A stretch of DNA of 64,000 bases, from assembly GCF_000158955.1 (NCBI RefSeq), contig NZ_GG657757.1, positions 6,081,858 through 6,145,857 of the forward strand, read 5' to 3'. Origin of the DNA: Streptomyces viridochromogenes DSM 40736 (GTDB lineage: Bacteria; Actinomycetota; Actinomycetes; Streptomycetales; Streptomycetaceae). The stretch's first letter is position 1. Every line of letters begins with the position of its first letter. The notes under the pieces were generated by a model. The model saw only the letters and a list, made by a program, of their open reading frames with translations, made no database searches and had not been told where the DNA came from. Both the position numbers and the translations under genes were made by a program. Shown piece after piece: positions 57,396 through 63,554 of this stretch.

Positions 57396-59648
57396 TCAGC
57401 CGGCCACGCGCAGCAGCAGCACCGCCCGGGCCGGCACCGTGATCTCCGTCCCCGCCGGGTGCACCACGCCCGGCGCTTCCCCCTGCTCCTCCAGACTCGT
57501 GTCCACGACCACCTCGTACCGCTCCGCCCACGGCGGCCCCGGCAGCGCGAAGCTCACCGGCGTCTCACCCGCGTGCAGGACGGCCAGGAAGCTGTCGTCG
57601 AGGATCTGCCGCCCCCGCTCGTCCCGGCCCGGGATGTCCCGTCCGGACAGGTACATGGCCAGCGAGGCGGCCGGCGCGTACCAGTCCTGCTCCGTCATCT
57701 CGGTGCCCCGGGAGGTGAACCAGGCCAGGTCGCGCAGCCCGTCCGCGGTCTGCGCCCGGCCCGAGAAGAAGGCCCGGCGCCTGAGCACCGGGTGCCGGTG
57801 ACGGAGCTTGATCAGCCGGGAGGTCAGCTCGAACAGCGCCCTCCAGCCGGGGTCCTCCAGCAGGCTCCAGTCCACCCAGCCGATCTCGTTGTCCTGGCAG
57901 TAGGCGTTGTTGTTCCCGCGCTGGGTGCGGCCCAGTTCGTCGCCCGCGACCAGCATGGGCACGCCCGTGGACAGCAGCAGGGTGGTGAGCAGGTTCCTGA
58001 GCTGCCGCCGCCTGAGCGCCCGTACGCCCTCGTCGTCCGTCTCGCCCTCGGCACCGCAGTTCCAGGCCCGGTTGTCGTCCGAGCCGTCCCGGTTGCCCTC
58101 GCCGTTGGCCTCGTTGTGCTTGCGCTCGTAGGTCACCAGGTCGCGCAGGGTGAAACCGTCGTGCGCGGTGACGAAGTTGACCGACGCGTACGGCCTGCGC
58201 CCGCCCCAGGCGTACAGGTCGCTGGAGCCCGACAGGCGGTAGCCCATCTCCCGAACATCGGGCAGGGCGTGCCGCCAGAAGTCCCGGACGGCGCCCCGGT
58301 ACCGGTCGTTCCACTCCGTCCACAGGGGCGGGAACGCCCCCACCTGGTATCCGCCCGACCCCACGTCCCACGGCTCGGCGATCAGCTTCACCCGGCGCAG
58401 CACCGGGTCCTGGGCGATGACCGCCAGGAACGGGGAGAGCATGTCGACGTCGTGCATGGAACGGGCCAGCGCCGCCGCCAGGTCGAAACGGAAGCCGTCC
58501 ACGCCCATCTCGGTCACCCAGTACCGCAGGGAGTCGGTGATCAGCCGCAGGACGTGCGGCTGGACCACGTGCAGGGTGTTGCCGCAGCCGGTGTAGTCGG
58601 CGTAGCGGCGCGGGTCGTCCTGGAGGCGGTAGTAGCCGCGGTTGTCGATGCCCTTCAAGGAGAGCGTCGGGCCGAGTTCGCCCGCCTCCGCCGTGTGGTT
58701 GTAGACCACGTCGAGGATGACCTCGATTCCGGCCGCGTGCAGGGCGCGCACCATGCGCTTGAACTCGCCGACCTGCTGACCGGTCGTCCCGGAGGCCGCG
58801 TAGCCGGAGTGCGGGGCGAAGTAGCCGACGGAGTTGTAGCCCCAGTAGTTCCGCAGGCCTCTGCGCAGCAGGTGGTCCTCGTGGGCGAACTGGTGCACCG
58901 GCAGCAGCTCCACCGCCGTCACCCCCAGCCTGACCAGGTGCTCGATCGCGGCCGGGTGCGCGAGACCGGCGTAGGTGCCGCGCAGTTCCTCGGGGATCTC
59001 CGGGTGCAGCCGGGTGAAGCCCTTGACGTGCAGCTCGTAGATCACGGAGTCGGCCCACGGCGTCTTCGGGCGGCGGTCGTCGGCCCAGTCGTCGTCATCG
59101 TGGACGACGACGCCTTTGGGGACGTACGGCGCCGAGTCCCGCTCGTCGCGCACGGTGTCGGCGACGTGCTGCTGCGGCCAGTCGCGGACGTGCCCGTACA
59201 CCTCGGGAGGCAGCGAGAAGTCCCCGTCCACCGCGCGCGCGTAGGGGTCGAGGAGCAGTTTCGCCGGGTTCCAGCGGGAGCCCGTCCAGGGGTCCCACCG
59301 GCCGTGCACCCGGTAGCCGTAGCGCCGGCCGGGCAGCACGCCCGGCACGAAACCGTGCCAGATCTCGTGGGTCAGCTCGCCGAGCCGGACCCGCGACTCC
59401 TTGCCCGCCTCGTCGAAGAGGCACAGCTCCACGCCCTCGGCCCCGCCCGCCCACAGGGCGAAGTTGGTCCCCGCCACCCCGTCCGGACCGACCCGGAACC
59501 GGGCGCCCAGCGGCGTCGGCGCGCCCGGCCAGGCAGGCACCGTGGGCGGCGGCGCGGCGGTCCGCCGTACGCCGTTCGCGGCGGCCTGGCGCCCGTTCCC
59601 GGCGGCCCGACGAGCGGCCACCGCCTCCTGCTCGGCTGCGCTGGACAC
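57396..59648 (-). CDS. glgX: Glycogen debranching enzyme GlgX
   Basis: Hydrolyses alpha-1,6 branches of phosphorylase-trimmed glycogen, complementing GlgP. The 750-residue protein starts at GTG 59648 with GGGAGG seven bases upstream. A disordered Ala-rich head (about 1-40) is followed by a CBM48 module (about 45-160, TPLGARFRVGPDGVAGTNFALWAG) and a GH13_11 barrel with VIYELHVKGFTRLHPEIP, VILDVVYNHTAEA, GFRFDLAAALAR (nucleophile Asp), LIAEPWDVGSGGYQVG (acid/base Glu) and FVTAHDGFTLRDLV. NNNAYCQDNEIGWVDW is specific to GlgX/isoamylase. It lies 10 kb from the glgE cluster on the same strand, with no immediate operon partner. Confidence 0.95.
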   Translation of the reverse strand: MSSAAEQEAVAARRAAGNGRQAAANGVRRTAAPPPTVPAWPGAPTPLGARFRVGPDGVAGTNFALWAGGAEGVELCLFDEAGKESRVRLGELTHEIWHGFVPGVLPGRRYGYRVHGRWDPWTGSRWNPAKLLLDPYARAVDGDFSLPPEVYGHVRDWPQQHVADTVRDERDSAPYVPKGVVVHDDDDWADDRRPKTPWADSVIYELHVKGFTRLHPEIPEELRGTYAGLAHPAAIEHLVRLGVTAVELLPVHQFAHEDHLLRRGLRNYWGYNSVGYFAPHSGYAASGTTGQQVGEFKRMVRALHAAGIEVILDVVYNHTAEAGELGPTLSLKGIDNRGYYRLQDDPRRYADYTGCGNTLHVVQPHVLRLITDSLRYWVTEMGVDGFRFDLAAALARSMHDVDMLSPFLAVIAQDPVLRRVKLIAEPWDVGSGGYQVGAFPPLWTEWNDRYRGAVRDFWRHALPDVREMGYRLSGSSDLYAWGGRRPYASVNFVTAHDGFTLRDLVTYERKHNEANGEGNRDGSDDNRAWNCGAEGETDDEGVRALRRRQLRNLLTTLLLSTGVPMLVAGDELGRTQRGNNNAYCQDNEIGWVDWSLLEDPGWRALFELTSRLIKLRHRHPVLRRRAFFSGRAQTADGLRDLAWFTSRGTEMTEQDWYAPAASLAMYLSGRDIPGRDERGRQILDDSFLAVLHAGETPVSFALPGPPWAERYEVVVDTSLEEQGEAPGVVHPAGTEITVPARAVLLLRVAG

Positions 59649-59835
59649 CTGTCAGCCTCCCGCGGCTCGTGGGACGACGGGGGACAGAGAGGTGCGGCCC
59701 CGTGCGCGGCCCGGGTCGCGGCTCCCCTGCGCGTCGTCCTCCCCACTGTTCTGCCCAGAGCATGGGTCGCACTCACGTTTCCCCGGGGGCGGGCATGGTC
59801 GTTTCCCGGGGACGCGGCCGGTCGTTGGGCACCTC

Positions 59836-61080
59836 GTGAGGCACGTACAAGGGCGCGCGCGGCGCGCGAGGGCCGCGCTGGCCGCCGTAGTGACATGGGC
59901 AGGGCTGATGGCCGGGGCCACGGGCTGTACCTCGGACGACATGGGCGGGATCGCCGGCGCCTTCGGCGCGCCCCCGGCGCCCGAGGACGTCATCCGGGTC
60001 TCGCCCGACGACGGCAGCAGGGGTGTGCGCCCCGGCAGGAAGCTGCGGGTGCGCGTGCCCGGCGGACGCCTGGAGTCGGTGAAGGTCGTCAGGTCGCAGG
60101 ACGCGCAGGAGACCCCGGTGCGCGGGCGCCTGTCCGCCGACCGGCTCACCTGGGAGCCCGAGGAGAAGCGGCTGGCGCTGGCGGCGAAGTACACCGTCGA
60201 CGTGGTGGCCGTGGGCGGCGACGGACGCCGCTCGGCCCGGCACACCACCTTCACGACGTACGTCCCCGAGGAACGCTTCATCGGCTACGTCACCCCGGAG
60301 AACCGCGCCACGGTCGGCACCGGAATGATCGTCTCACTGGAGTTCAACCGGGCGATCGCCCACCGCGCCGCCGTGGAACGCGCGGTGCGGGTCACCGCCA
60401 GTCCCGCCGTCGAGATCCGCCCGCACTGGTTCGGCAGGACCCGCCTGGACTTCCGTCCCGAGGAGTACTGGAAACCCGGCACCCAGGTCACCGTCGCCCT
60501 GCGCCTGCGGGACGTCGAGGGGGCCCGCGGGGTCTACGGCCTGCAGCACAAGACGTTCTCCTTCACCGTCGGCCGCAGCCAGGTCTCCGTGGTCGACGCC
60601 GCCCGCCACACCATGGAGGTCCGCCGCGACGGCGAAACGCTCGCCACCGTGCCGGTCACGGCCGGCGCCCCCAAGACCACCACGTACAACGGCAAGATGG
60701 TGGTGACCGAGATGCTCGAGGTCACCCGGATGAACGGCGCCACGGTCGGCTTCAAGAAGCGCGACGGCAAGGGCGAGTACGACATCCCGGACGTCCCGCA
60801 CGCCATGCGCCTGACCGACTCCGGCACCTTCCTGCACGGCAACTACTGGGCCCACCACTCCGTCTTCGGGCACAGCAACGTCAGTCACGGCTGCGTCGGA
60901 CTGCGCGACGTGAAGGGCGGCGGTGCCGCCACCCCGGCCGGCTGGTTCTTCGACCGCAGCCTCGTCGGGGACGTCGTCGAGGTCGTCAACAGCAATGACA
61001 AAGAGGTCGATCCCGACAACGGGCTCGGAGGCTGGAATATGGGCTGGAACGCATGGAAGGCGGGCAGTGCGGTGAAGTAG
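59836..61080 (+). CDS. Lipoprotein L,D-transpeptidase with Ig-like domains (first copy)
   Basis: A 414-residue cell-wall enzyme that makes 3-3 peptidoglycan cross-links or attaches proteins. GTG 59836 leads into a signal peptide with a lipobox-like AGATGC. Two Ig-like domains (about 45-240) precede a YkuD domain with QVSVVDAARHTMEVRRDG, GTFLHGNYWAHHSVFG and the catalytic SHGCVGLRD. A Trp-rich C-terminal tail (GGWNMGWNAWK) is shared with the paralogue. No Shine-Dalgarno sequence is visible. A 14-codon ORF (59795-59839, MVVSRGRGRSLGTS) stops over the GTG (GTGA), suggesting coupled translation. It is divergent from glgX and in tandem with the second copy. Confidence 0.92.
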   Translation: MRHVQGRARRARAALAAVVTWAGLMAGATGCTSDDMGGIAGAFGAPPAPEDVIRVSPDDGSRGVRPGRKLRVRVPGGRLESVKVVRSQDAQETPVRGRLSADRLTWEPEEKRLALAAKYTVDVVAVGGDGRRSARHTTFTTYVPEERFIGYVTPENRATVGTGMIVSLEFNRAIAHRAAVERAVRVTASPAVEIRPHWFGRTRLDFRPEEYWKPGTQVTVALRLRDVEGARGVYGLQHKTFSFTVGRSQVSVVDAARHTMEVRRDGETLATVPVTAGAPKTTTYNGKMVVTEMLEVTRMNGATVGFKKRDGKGEYDIPDVPHAMRLTDSGTFLHGNYWAHHSVFGHSNVSHGCVGLRDVKGGGAATPAGWFFDRSLVGDVVEVVNSNDKEVDPDNGLGGWNMGWNAWKAGSAVK

Positions 61081-61236
61081 TCCGACACGGGGGTGGGTTG
61101 ACGCAGCGTTCCGTTGGGACCGAACGGTGACATTCGCGGGCCGCCGGTGCCGTTCACCCTGTGGTTACTATTCGCCGGTGCGCGGGGGACGCGCAGGGGC
61201 GCGGGGCCTGACCAGGCCCGGGGAGGGGAGAACCAC

Positions 61237-62463
61237 GTGAACGGGCGACCGATATCGGGGGCGTCGGTTGGCGGGCGGAACGGAGCGCTCGCACTGATAG
61301 CCGGGGGGCTGCTGCTGGCCGTCACGGCGTGCGGTGGCGGGGGGACGGGTTCCGGTGCCGGCGGGGGCGAGGGCAAGGGCTCGGACGCCGCGCGGAGCAA
61401 GCAGTCCGAGGCCGTCGTCAGCATCACGCCGAAGGACGGCGCCAAGTCCGTCGACACCAGCGGCGCGCTGAAGGTCACCGCCGCCAAGGGGAAGCTGACC
61501 GAGGTCGAGGTCGAGGACGGCAAGGGCAGGAAGATCGCCGGGAAGATATCCGGGGACGGCGCCACCTGGACGCCGTCCACCCATCTGGCCGCGGCCACCA
61601 AGTACAAGGTCCACGCGGTCGCCAAGGACTCCGAAGGCCGCACGGCCGCGGAGGACACCGGCTTCACGACCCTGACGCCGGACAACACCTTCACCGGCAG
61701 CTTCACCCCCGAGGACGGCTCCAAGGTCGGGGTGGGCATGCCGTTCTCCATCCGCTTCTCGCGGGGCATCACCCACCCGGACGACGTCGAGAAGGCCATC
61801 CGCATCAGGACGGAACCGGCCGTCGACGTCGAGGGTCACTGGTTCGGCAACGACCGTCTCGACTTCCGCCCCGAGAAGTACTGGAAGCCCGGCACCAAGG
61901 TGACCGTCGACCTCGACCTCGACGGCGTCGAAGGCCGCCCCGGCGTCTACGGCGAGCAGGACAAGACCGTCGACTTCACCATCGGCCGCAACCAGGTCTC
62001 CGTGGTCGACGCCAAGAAGCTCACGATGAAGGTCACGCGCGACGGCAAGACCGTCAAGACCATCCCGGTCACCACCGGCAAGCCCGGGATGGAGACCTGG
62101 AACGGCCAGATGGTCGTCAGCGAGATGCTCACGGTGACCCGGATGAACGGCGAGACGGTCGGCTACGGCGGCGAGTACGACATCAAGGACGTCCCGCACG
62201 CCGTGCGCCTGACCACCTCCGGCACCTTCCTGCACGGCAACTACTGGGCGGGCGGCGCCTTCGGCAACTACAACGCCAGCCACGGCTGCATCGGCCTGCG
62301 CGACGTGCGCGGCGGCTGGGACAAGAAGGTGCCGGCCGCGTGGTTCTTCAACCACTCGATGGTCGGCGACGTCGTGGTCGTCAAGAACTCCGAGGACCGG
62401 ATCGTCGACCCGGACAACGGGCTCAACGGCTGGAACATGTCCTGGGAGAAGTGGAAGAAGTGA
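61237..62463 (+). CDS. Lipoprotein L,D-transpeptidase with Ig-like domains (second copy)
   Basis: A 408-residue paralogue of the preceding gene. GTG 61237 (VNGRPISGASVGG) has GGGGAG six bases upstream. The signal peptide ends in a lipobox LLAVTACG, followed by a short Gly/Ser linker. Two Ig-like domains and a YkuD domain have QVSVVDAKKLTMKVTRDG, GTFLHGNYWAGGAFGNYN and catalytic SHGCIGLRD; the tail is LNGWNMSWEKWKK. Differences from copy one lie mainly in the linker and first Ig-like domain. Such enzymes contribute to beta-lactam-tolerant cross-links in actinobacteria. The strong hairpin at 62474-62519 ends the transcript. Confidence 0.94.
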   Translation: MNGRPISGASVGGRNGALALIAGGLLLAVTACGGGGTGSGAGGGEGKGSDAARSKQSEAVVSITPKDGAKSVDTSGALKVTAAKGKLTEVEVEDGKGRKIAGKISGDGATWTPSTHLAAATKYKVHAVAKDSEGRTAAEDTGFTTLTPDNTFTGSFTPEDGSKVGVGMPFSIRFSRGITHPDDVEKAIRIRTEPAVDVEGHWFGNDRLDFRPEKYWKPGTKVTVDLDLDGVEGRPGVYGEQDKTVDFTIGRNQVSVVDAKKLTMKVTRDGKTVKTIPVTTGKPGMETWNGQMVVSEMLTVTRMNGETVGYGGEYDIKDVPHAVRLTTSGTFLHGNYWAGGAFGNYNASHGCIGLRDVRGGWDKKVPAAWFFNHSMVGDVVVVKNSEDRIVDPDNGLNGWNMSWEKWKK

Positions 62464-62473
62464 CCCCGGCCTG

Positions 62474-62519
62474 ACGGCAGGGGCCCCGGTGTGACGGACC
62501 GCACCGGGGCCCTTGCCGT
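62474..62519 (+). terminator. Very strong terminator after the second L,D-transpeptidase
   Basis: ACGGCAGGGGCCCCGGTG / CACCGGGGCCCTTGCCGT, 18 pairs with one G-U and a 10-nt loop, 10 bp after the stop codon. Confidence 0.92.
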
Positions 62520-62769
62520 TGGCCCCCGTGCGGTGCTTGCCCGGGGGCAACCCCTGGACCCCCGGCCGATGTGACCCACCGCACCGCCCCCAAATCTGTT
62601 AGCCCCCGTGCTGTGTTTGCCCGGGGGCAACCCCTGGACCCCCGGCCGATGTGACCCACCGCACCGCCCCCAATCCCGTTAGCCCCCGTGCTGTGTTTGC
62701 CCGGGGGCAACCCCCGGACCCCCGGCCGATGTGACCCACCGCACGCCCCCAAATCTGTTAGCCCCCGTT
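62519..62769. repeat. Three tandem 80-bp repeats plus partial fourth
   Basis: Units begin TTAGCCCCCGTGCTGTG at about 62519, 62599, 62679 and (partial) 62758, with periods of 80, 80 and 79 bp and near identity. Each contains the hairpin TTGCCCGGGGGCAA, then CTGGACCCCCGGCCG, GATGTGACCCACCGCAC and CCCCCAAATCTG. No coding frame of credible codon use spans them. They fill most of the interval before the enoyl-CoA hydratase. Confidence 0.93.
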
Positions 62770-62782
62770 CAACCTACTACCT

Positions 62783-63554
62783 ATGACCGTCTCTCTCGAA
62801 AGTCGCTGAAGGTGTCGGCACGCTGCGCCTGGACCGTCCGCCCATGAACGCGCTGGACATCGCCACGCAGGACCGGCTGAAGGAACTCGCCGAGGAGGCC
62901 CGCGCGCCGGGAGGGACGTGCGGGCCCGTGGTGGTCTACGGCGGGGAGAAGGTGTTCGCGGCCGGCGCGGACATCAAGGAGATGCAGGCGATGGACCACA
63001 CCGCGATGGTCCTGCGCGCCCGCGCCCTGCAGGACTCGTTCACGGCGGTGGCCCGGATCCCCAAGCCGGTCGTCGCGGCCGTGACGGGCTACGCGCTCGG
63101 CGGCGGCTGCGAACTCGCGCTCTGCGCCGACTACCGGATCGCCGGCGAGAACGCCAAGCTCGGTCAGCCGGAGATCCTGCTCGGCCTGATCCCCGGCGCG
63201 GGCGGCACCCAGCGCCTGGCCCGGCTCGTGGGCCCCTCCAAGGCCAAGGACCTCATCTTCACCGGCCGGATGGTGAAGGCGGACGAGGCGCGGGAGATCG
63301 GCCTGGTGGACCGGGTCGTACCCGCGGAGGAGGTGTACACGCAGGCGCACGCCTGGGCCTCGAAGCTGGCGCAGGGCCCGGCGCTCGCGCTGCGCGCCGC
63401 CAAGGAGGCGATCGACGCGGGCCTGGAGACGGACATCGACACGGGCCTGACGATCGAACGGAACTGGTTCGCAGGTCTGTTCGCCACCGAGGACCGCGAG
63501 CGCGGGATGCGCAGCTTCGTGGAGGAGGGGCCGGGCAAGGCGAAGTTCCTCTGA
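62783..63554 (+). CDS. Enoyl-CoA hydratase/isomerase family protein with out-of-frame first codons
   Basis: Crotonase-fold enzyme, probably a fatty-acid or acyl-CoA hydratase. ATG 62783 begins MTVSLE, then an extra A in the AAA run at 62799-62801 puts the frame into a stop; removing one A gives VAEGVGTLRLDRPPMNALDIATQ in continuity with the rest. As it stands the intact frame starts only at ATG 62844 (236 residues, ending at 63554), lacking the first beta strand. The remaining protein has all hallmarks: FAAGADIKEM (oxyanion hole), VTGYALGGGCELALCADYRIA and PEILLGLIPGAGGTQRL with the catalytic Glu. It is a sequencing error, programmed shift or recent mutation; which one cannot be told here. 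Confidence 0.88.

Follow-up and report, generated by a model that had tools for sequence, protein, structure and literature searches.

A tandem array of hairpin element and copied host sequence between L,D-transpeptidase and enoyl-CoA hydratase genes in Streptomyces

Genomic islands and phages integrate site-specifically into the 3' ends of genes, and MIRU elements insert at overlapping stop and start codons. The MIRU of Mycobacterium tuberculosis, in those parts of one account that deal with them, have units of 40–100 bp and occupy 41 places in the chromosome, 12 of which vary in unit number; the gap between rnc and fpg1 measures 279–358 bp and holds repeats in the M. tuberculosis-complex strains listed there, and spans a few bp in other mycobacteria (PMC2734929). 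For Streptococcus pneumoniae, the relevant sections of a second source describe BOX, RUP and SPRITE as short, dispersed, structured repeats that are apparently dormant, with terminal inverted repeats in BOX and RUP and with SPRITE being terminator-like and lying near the 3' ends of genes (PMC3049150). REP sequences usually number more than 100 copies per genome, according to the part of a third source that treats them (PMC2817692). The Streptomyces array considered here behaves like a MIRU-VNTR, a likeness that by itself does not make it one.

Composition of the array in the transpeptidase–hydratase gap

The window, that is, the whole stretch of DNA that was analysed (64,000 nucleotides), comes from a chromosome assembled as one contig of 8.65 Mb, and its placement in Streptomyces follows from its nearest relatives, S. 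djakartensis among them. Between the terminator of an L,D-transpeptidase gene and the start of an enoyl-CoA hydratase gene lie three units of 80, 80 and 79 bp (62529–62767). These are the near-identical tandem repeats of the initial annotation, and both Tandem Repeats Finder and exact tiling recover them, the former as a single array (62518–62768, period 80, 3.2 copies, 93% matches) whose score of 446 is the highest among its 35 rows for the window. Each unit is a composite of a 41-nt hairpin element (E) and a 39-nt copy of the adjoining host segment (T). The order T0-E1-T1-E2-T2-E3-T3 tiles positions 62490–62767 without a gap, and the third unit has 79 bp because T3 is 38 rather than 39 nt long. 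The features of the region are as follows:

61114–62463, + strand: L,D-transpeptidase gene upstream of the array (ORF list; Pfam YkuD, E 4.6e-14, and Big_10)
62471–62522, + strand: terminator hairpin of the L,D-transpeptidase gene (-49.8 kcal/mol, z -6.4)
62490–62528, + strand: T0, original host segment, made of the terminator 3' half and GTTGGCCCCCG (28/39 identical to T1)
62529–62569, + strand: E1, first copy of the hairpin element (covariance model R1, 54.8 bits)
62570–62608, + strand: T1, copied host segment (exact tiling)
62609–62649, + strand: E2, second copy of the hairpin element (R1, 57.3 bits)
62650–62688, + strand: T2, copied host segment (36/39 identical to T1)
62689–62729, + strand: E3, third copy of the hairpin element (R1, 62.1 bits; absent from the 15 sequences behind the model)
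62730–62767, + strand: T3, copied host segment, one base shorter, beside the putative hydratase promoter (exact tiling)
62768–62782, + strand: TTCAACCTACTACCT, diverged TTAACCT box just before the hydratase start, abutted by the E insertion point
62783–63554, + strand: enoyl-CoA hydratase gene (Pfam ECH_1, E 2e-60 for 62844–63551)

The terminator contains an inverted repeat (62474–62491 with 62502–62519) and is separate from the array, as had been annotated. T0 is a further partial copy that the initial annotation lacked, and its homology extends back into the terminator loop; its identity to T1 was reached by 0 of 10,000 shuffles of T1, and at the empty site L064 the only T present agrees with it at 34/39 positions. 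A coding role for the array is unlikely, in line with the earlier reading of it as noncoding, because 80 is no multiple of 3 and the overlapping open reading frames are mechanical ones, found on the other strand only. Searched against its own genome at E <= 0.001, the 80-mer matches the three array units and nothing else.

The two states of the gap in related genomes differ by whole units. A typical empty gap runs from the terminator hairpin through CGTTAGTCCCCG and TTAACCTGCTGCC to ATG, and in a filled gap one or more E+T units sit between CCCCG and TTAACC. The consensus of E in filled gaps is TGCTGTGyyTGCCyGGGGGCaaCCCCCrGACCCCCGGCCGA (41–42 nt, G+C-rich); T there reads TGTGACcgACCGCACCgg...GTTAGyCCCCG (~39 nt) and is a second copy of the terminator 3' half plus the box.

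On the hydratase side, 98 of 99 other gap sequences (among which some genomes are counted twice) have TAACCT immediately before the start, where the window reads TTCAACCTACTACCT; judged from sequence, the TTAACCT box is a putative promoter of the hydratase gene. An ATG or GTG followed by 20 open codons is likewise present in 98/99 of these sequences, and the window has a stop. An extra A in the run at 62799–62801 breaks its frame (CTCGAAAGTCGC in place of CTCGAAGTCGC), which is open again from the ATG at 62844; this is either a sequence error or a real frameshift or loss. On the other side of the array, the adjacent L,D-transpeptidase genes at 59401–61080 and 61114–62463 share the domain make-up Big_10, Big_5, YkuD.

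Unit number and unit identity among relatives

To compare the locus across genomes, gaps were fetched from 80 loci by way of the hydratase gene. An L,D-transpeptidase orthologue lies upstream of the same hydratase in 78/80; L093 and L121, where none was found upstream, were dropped. Loci lying in reverse (L142, L146, L149, L150, L158, L165, L166 and L168) gave no forward match and were left out of the gap counts. The E pattern is absent from 62 of the 78 gaps and present in 16. The unit proper is carried by 14/78 Streptomyces gaps in 1–4 copies, some of them degraded (the count for L063 was corrected from a pattern count of 1 to 2), and a related insert by 2/78 (L075 and L083), which fit the E pattern but lack T and were scored as 0 on the tree. 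Eight of the 62 E-less gaps are longer than 180 nt and were left out of the analysis. Related hairpin inserts without a T copy are seen at or near the same transpeptidase–hydratase box in L075, L083 and L140.

Gap length follows unit number. Taken together with 60 nt of the hydratase N-terminus, the gap measures ~140 nt in many E-less loci (most about 100–185, with a single T), 203–276 nt where one unit is recognisable, 300–315 nt with two, 380 nt with the three of the window and 464 nt with four, so that array loci lengthen by ~80–82 nt per unit. Beyond the 78 gaps, G104 carries six identical 82-bp units. The range of 0 to 6 units per genome at this one place fits a hot spot of copy number; a homologous-recombination hot spot was one of the possibilities raised in the initial annotation. 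It also bears on whether the array could be an artefact of assembly, which we regard as very improbable: 1 to 6 units stand at the same place in other genomes, those of G104 within an 11.4-Mb contig, and the copies in the window differ from one another.

Units resemble each other more closely within arrays than between them. Over ten arrays, mean unit identity is 0.973 within (33 pairs, 15 of them from G104; the other 18 give 0.951) versus 0.813 between (345 pairs, highest 0.963). The proposal of recent amplification or concerted evolution, made from the near identity of the repeats, is thus supported for the arrays as a set; the window itself does not show it, as its units are 0.942 identical among themselves and 0.90–0.963 identical to the two units of its relative S. 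massasporeus. Being no closer to one another than to those of S. massasporeus, the window units suggest that amplification may predate the species.

Mapped onto the hydratase tree, the presence of E (15/79 rows) requires no fewer than 13 changes, and well-supported branches force 5 of these; shuffled labels need about as many (14.0; 125/500 as low). L119 and L120, which bear one species name, do not group with each other on this tree. In the loci inspected by eye, the junction at which E lies is constant and the first base of T nearly so, and this constancy favours one old insertion with losses. We therefore prefer a reading of these sequences in which a single old insertion at the hydratase locus would have been followed by many losses via T–T recombination. 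The patchy tree also allows repeated independent insertion at a hot target.

Dispersal of the element and repeats of host sequence at its sites

Recurrence of the unit at other loci had been named as a check. E does recur, and T proved to be specific to its locus. A search with the whole gap found matches in at least 121 of the 199 genus genomes (the window's own among them), and among the matches listed many span the E part only. With covariance model R1, built on 15 E copies, E is found in 34 of 61 genus genomes, including the window's own, at E <= 1e-4 and in 0–13 copies each, counts that are lower bounds because stricter filters were used. In the window's genome R1 gives 17 matches at E <= 10: besides the three units there is one more full copy, at 6,696,948 (E 1.9e-4), and the remaining matches are weaker. 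Altogether, 104 E sites reduce to 101 unique ones in 58 target groups, and tandem arrays at other loci have periods of 69, 72, 80, 84, 89, 92, 104 and 111 bp. We recognised no published description of E in literature searched by titles and abstract openings, which is weak evidence that none exists. We rejected a longer element extending beyond E, since the 60 nt on its far side share little information across the 101 sites (at most 0.63 bits per position, in the last two).

Outside the genus, a class-wide sample searched at E <= 1e-5 matched 25/296 genomes, 17 from the window's genus (own included) and 8 from one other family. ARAGORN places a tRNA gene in 6 of the 8 other-family loci (L306, L310, L311, L315, L316 and L317) and none at L313 and L314, and we regard these matches as hairpins related to E in a different setting. 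Close to the tRNA gene in L306, L310, L311 and L315–L317 there is a hairpin of similar form, CCCGGGGG-CCCCCGG.

Pairs of E copies from one genome have a mean identity (0.812, 187 pairs) no higher than that of unrelated copies (0.804, 4778 pairs), so that no recent burst of movement in a genome is seen. Identity is somewhat higher, at 0.858 (85 pairs), for copies that occupy one target across genomes. Together these figures point to slow or extinct movement and to descent at sites.

The surroundings of E reveal a pattern that extends well beyond the hydratase locus. We compared the 160 nt on each side of E, calling a direct repeat at a local score of at least 18, and found direct repeats of host sequence flanking E at 54/101 sites versus 2/402 control windows shifted by 350–400 nt in the same loci. 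At 50 of these 54 sites, and in none of the 402 controls, the left repeat stops no more than 2 nt from the E 5' end; the right copy begins 0–112 nt after E (median 15). Junctions were counted for 51 of the 54 duplication sites: T there is 21–122 nt long (median 43), although the 122-nt case (L036) covers an array unit and the longest single T has 118 nt (L262), and the host bases after the shared stretch are AA in 27/51, GA in 10/51 and TA in 5/51.

The sequences duplicated at E sites are mostly gene 3' ends. By a mechanical ORF test, a frame of at least 80 codons ends no more than 130 nt before E' at 75/101 sites, an upper bound because the test was run mechanically in GC-rich DNA; the same kind of test finds the end of a long frame immediately ahead of E' at 48 of the 54 duplication sites. 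Genes at duplication sites, one locus each by Pfam, include those for an EPSP-synthase-family protein (which we take to be murA), an ABC transporter permease, an ABC ATPase, a PmbA/TldD-like protein, a PhyH-like dioxygenase, a proline dehydrogenase and an EngA-like GTPase. At the PhyH-like site the gene tail is single in relatives that lack E and double in relatives that carry it; in the window's genome the two tails are identical at 32/32 bases. Paralogous PhyH-like genes of this genome (L276 at 6,696,948 and L294 at ~1,992,580) have E or its remnant at the same near-3' point, with duplicated tails, the copy at L294 being an apparently degenerate E. At some sites, by eye, T spans an overlapping stop and start (ATGA, GTGA), so that the left gene keeps its tail and the right gene its ribosome site and start. 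T also includes part of a tRNA-Lys gene at L213 and L273 and part of a tRNA-Cys gene at L050; beside the latter, ARAGORN makes two tRNA-Gly calls across the E units that are probably spurious.

The direct-repeat test finds no duplication at 47/101 E sites, among which L207, L209, L235 and L241 seem, by eye, to have a short or diverged one. By a mechanical test, a frame of at least 60 codons that starts with (A/G)TGAA lies within 130 nt downstream of E at 18/47 non-duplicated sites versus 8/54 duplicated ones. At one non-duplicated site, orthologous gaps occur with and without E plus a promoter-like stretch, and the polarity of filled and empty is ambiguous; distant species keep an E-like remnant and the promoter-like stretch there, so some empty gaps may be deletions. 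Two further insertions stand out by their setting. In L230, E lies within the open coding frame of a flavin-monooxygenase-like gene (named by eye) as an apparent in-frame insertion, and in L303 it lies inside a TTTCACGTGAAAC sequence that is partly duplicated and that looks like a parS site.

These distributions also allow us to weigh a plain minisatellite, in which a stretch of the terminator–promoter gap would have been duplicated by slippage with no dispersed element. Such an origin would account for the overlap of the unit with the local terminator, as T0 shows, and for an array of similar units of the type that Tandem Repeats Finder reports. It does not explain why the empty gaps inspected are without E, or why the same E occurs in 58 target groups and is flanked there by different host repeats, and we consider it unlikely.

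Hairpin folding, proposed origin and known systems

The conserved internal hairpin noted in each unit is present, within E, as CCGGGGG-CAA-CCCCYGG, although single units fold only slightly better than shuffles when treated as RNA (z -1.35, -1.88 and -1.54 on the + strand; -0.80, -0.79 and -1.68 on the - strand). For units 2 and 3 alone, the best predicted + strand fold is another hairpin, GCCCCCG with CGGGGGC, that competes with the E stem. For the region 62464–62785, which takes in the terminator, folding is clearly stronger than for shuffles (z -4.43 on the + strand, -2.49 on the - strand). Compensatory change in the stem, which had been named as a check, gives a mixed answer: the covariation score of the E stem is reached by only 5/500 shuffles, yet one pair alone changes on both sides, a count that 310/500 shuffles reach. 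At the two outer stem pairs the 101 sites comprise 81 with C-G/C-G, 6 with a compensated T-A pair, 1 half-changed and 13 unparsed. A stem kept with few compensated changes fits a DNA hairpin or an RNA hairpin alike. Rfam gives 12 matches up to E 10 for 62400–62900, none above its own gathering score.

An array of structured RNAs or of protein-binding sites, both among the initial proposals, that acts on the hydratase promoter would be consistent with the regular 80-bp spacing, the GTTAGyCCCCG box in every unit, the folding of the whole region, the covariation score, and the T-A pairs at 6 of the 88 parsed sites. Set against these are single-unit folding near that of shuffles, the single pair with changes on both sides, the lack of an Rfam family over its gathering score, and the 62/78 relatives in which E is missing; taken together, they make such an array improbable. 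For RNA in particular, the feeble single-unit folding, the Rfam result and the thin, mixed covariation led us to reject this candidate, and the structured-RNA role first suggested for the array has weak support.

Alternatively, the repeats could work as an insulator or as a series of terminators, in which every E hairpin would halt transcription between transpeptidase and hydratase and unit number would be under selection. The GC-rich stem of the typed consensus is strong (-18.6 kcal/mol), and the mechanical test does place the ends of long frames before E' at the 75 sites given above. Neither strand of the consensus has a T run after the stem, so that the U tract of an intrinsic terminator is lacking; moreover, a strong terminator is already in place at this locus, and 62/78 relatives do without E at the hydratase gap. 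We accordingly give this explanation little weight, and while a mild insulating or terminator effect of E is possible, no selected function is needed to account for the array.

We think it probable that the array consists of E+T units left by an old insertion of a small interspersed element with target duplication, followed by changes in copy number through recombination between direct repeats. E would have entered once, between the TT and AA of the box upstream of the hydratase, and the target segment, made up of the terminator 3' half and the GTTAGCCCCCG box before the hydratase promoter, would have been duplicated on entry; with this segment duplicated, both flanks would remain intact, the terminator to the left of E and the promoter box to its right. 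Unequal recombination or slippage between the direct repeats could then shift the number of units, and T–T recombination could bring back the empty state. Set against this reading are the 47 sites without a duplication by the direct-repeat test, the spacer of 0–112 nt between E and the right-hand T copy, which it does not account for, and the similarity of the window units to those of S. massasporeus.

As to what moves E, neither of two candidate enzymes is associated with it over 61 genomes, and both were rejected as the mover. Reverse transcriptase (RVT_1) occurs in 12/34 genomes with E and 11/27 without (23/61; p 0.79), with none found in the window's genome, and Y1 transposase (Y1_Tnp) in 8/34 and 6/27 (14/61; p 1.0); of the 12 genomes with at least four E, 7 have neither. 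The precise E 5' end and variable spacer would suit a retroposon-like origin, yet 47/101 sites are without duplication. The combination of a precise 5' end, a ragged other end and a variable target copy may be likened to target-primed reverse transcription or to the work of a cryptic site-specific recombinase.

More tentatively, E may be an undescribed family of ultra-short (~41 nt) mobile Streptomyces hairpins that enter between T(G/T) and AA(C/G) in boxes of that kind and copy tens of bp of whichever gene tail, operon junction, promoter or tRNA 3' part lies next to them, leaving both neighbours intact. The array joins a Streptomyces-wide set of sites at which a very small hairpin lies by gene ends or operon junctions and copied host DNA would have kept both neighbours working, which offers a natural experiment in the harmless spread of very small elements. 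If one enzyme makes the duplications, it would be an enzyme of unusual kind. The family-wide duplication pattern is more surprising than the array itself, and the loci of variable unit number are a source for strain typing.

Several described systems share some of these properties. E differs from the mobile elements known as MITEs in having no terminal inverted repeats, since TGCTGTG at one end and CGGCCGA at the other show no complementarity (by eye on alignments), and in a target copy that is not of fixed short length but ranges over 21–122 nt. E resembles REP and BIME in being a small hairpin found largely outside genes, and differs in that its 0–13 copies per genome (61 genomes, strict filters) fall below the figure of more than 100 given in the cited part of the REP literature, and in that Y1 transposases, unlike in a REP/BIME and RAYT pairing, do not track it. 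As far as the cited description of BOX and RUP goes, E is unlike them in having no terminal inverted repeats and in having long, variable target copies. The displaced and restored tails at E sites recall the block of identity at the attachment sites of islands and phages, which ends at or soon after the stop codon, but there is no room for an integrase gene, because only ~40–150 bp separate the tails at duplication sites. With MIRU-VNTRs, E shares the character of a short unit dispersed at several loci, some of them tandem and variable in number, and the states of the rnc–fpg1 gap, in the portion of the source that reports them, resemble the filled and empty hydratase gaps; the difference is that only the 41-nt E is common to loci here, the rest of the unit being a copy of local host DNA. 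In behaviour, the closest known systems are the MIRU-VNTRs and terminator-like interspersed repeats such as SPRITE.
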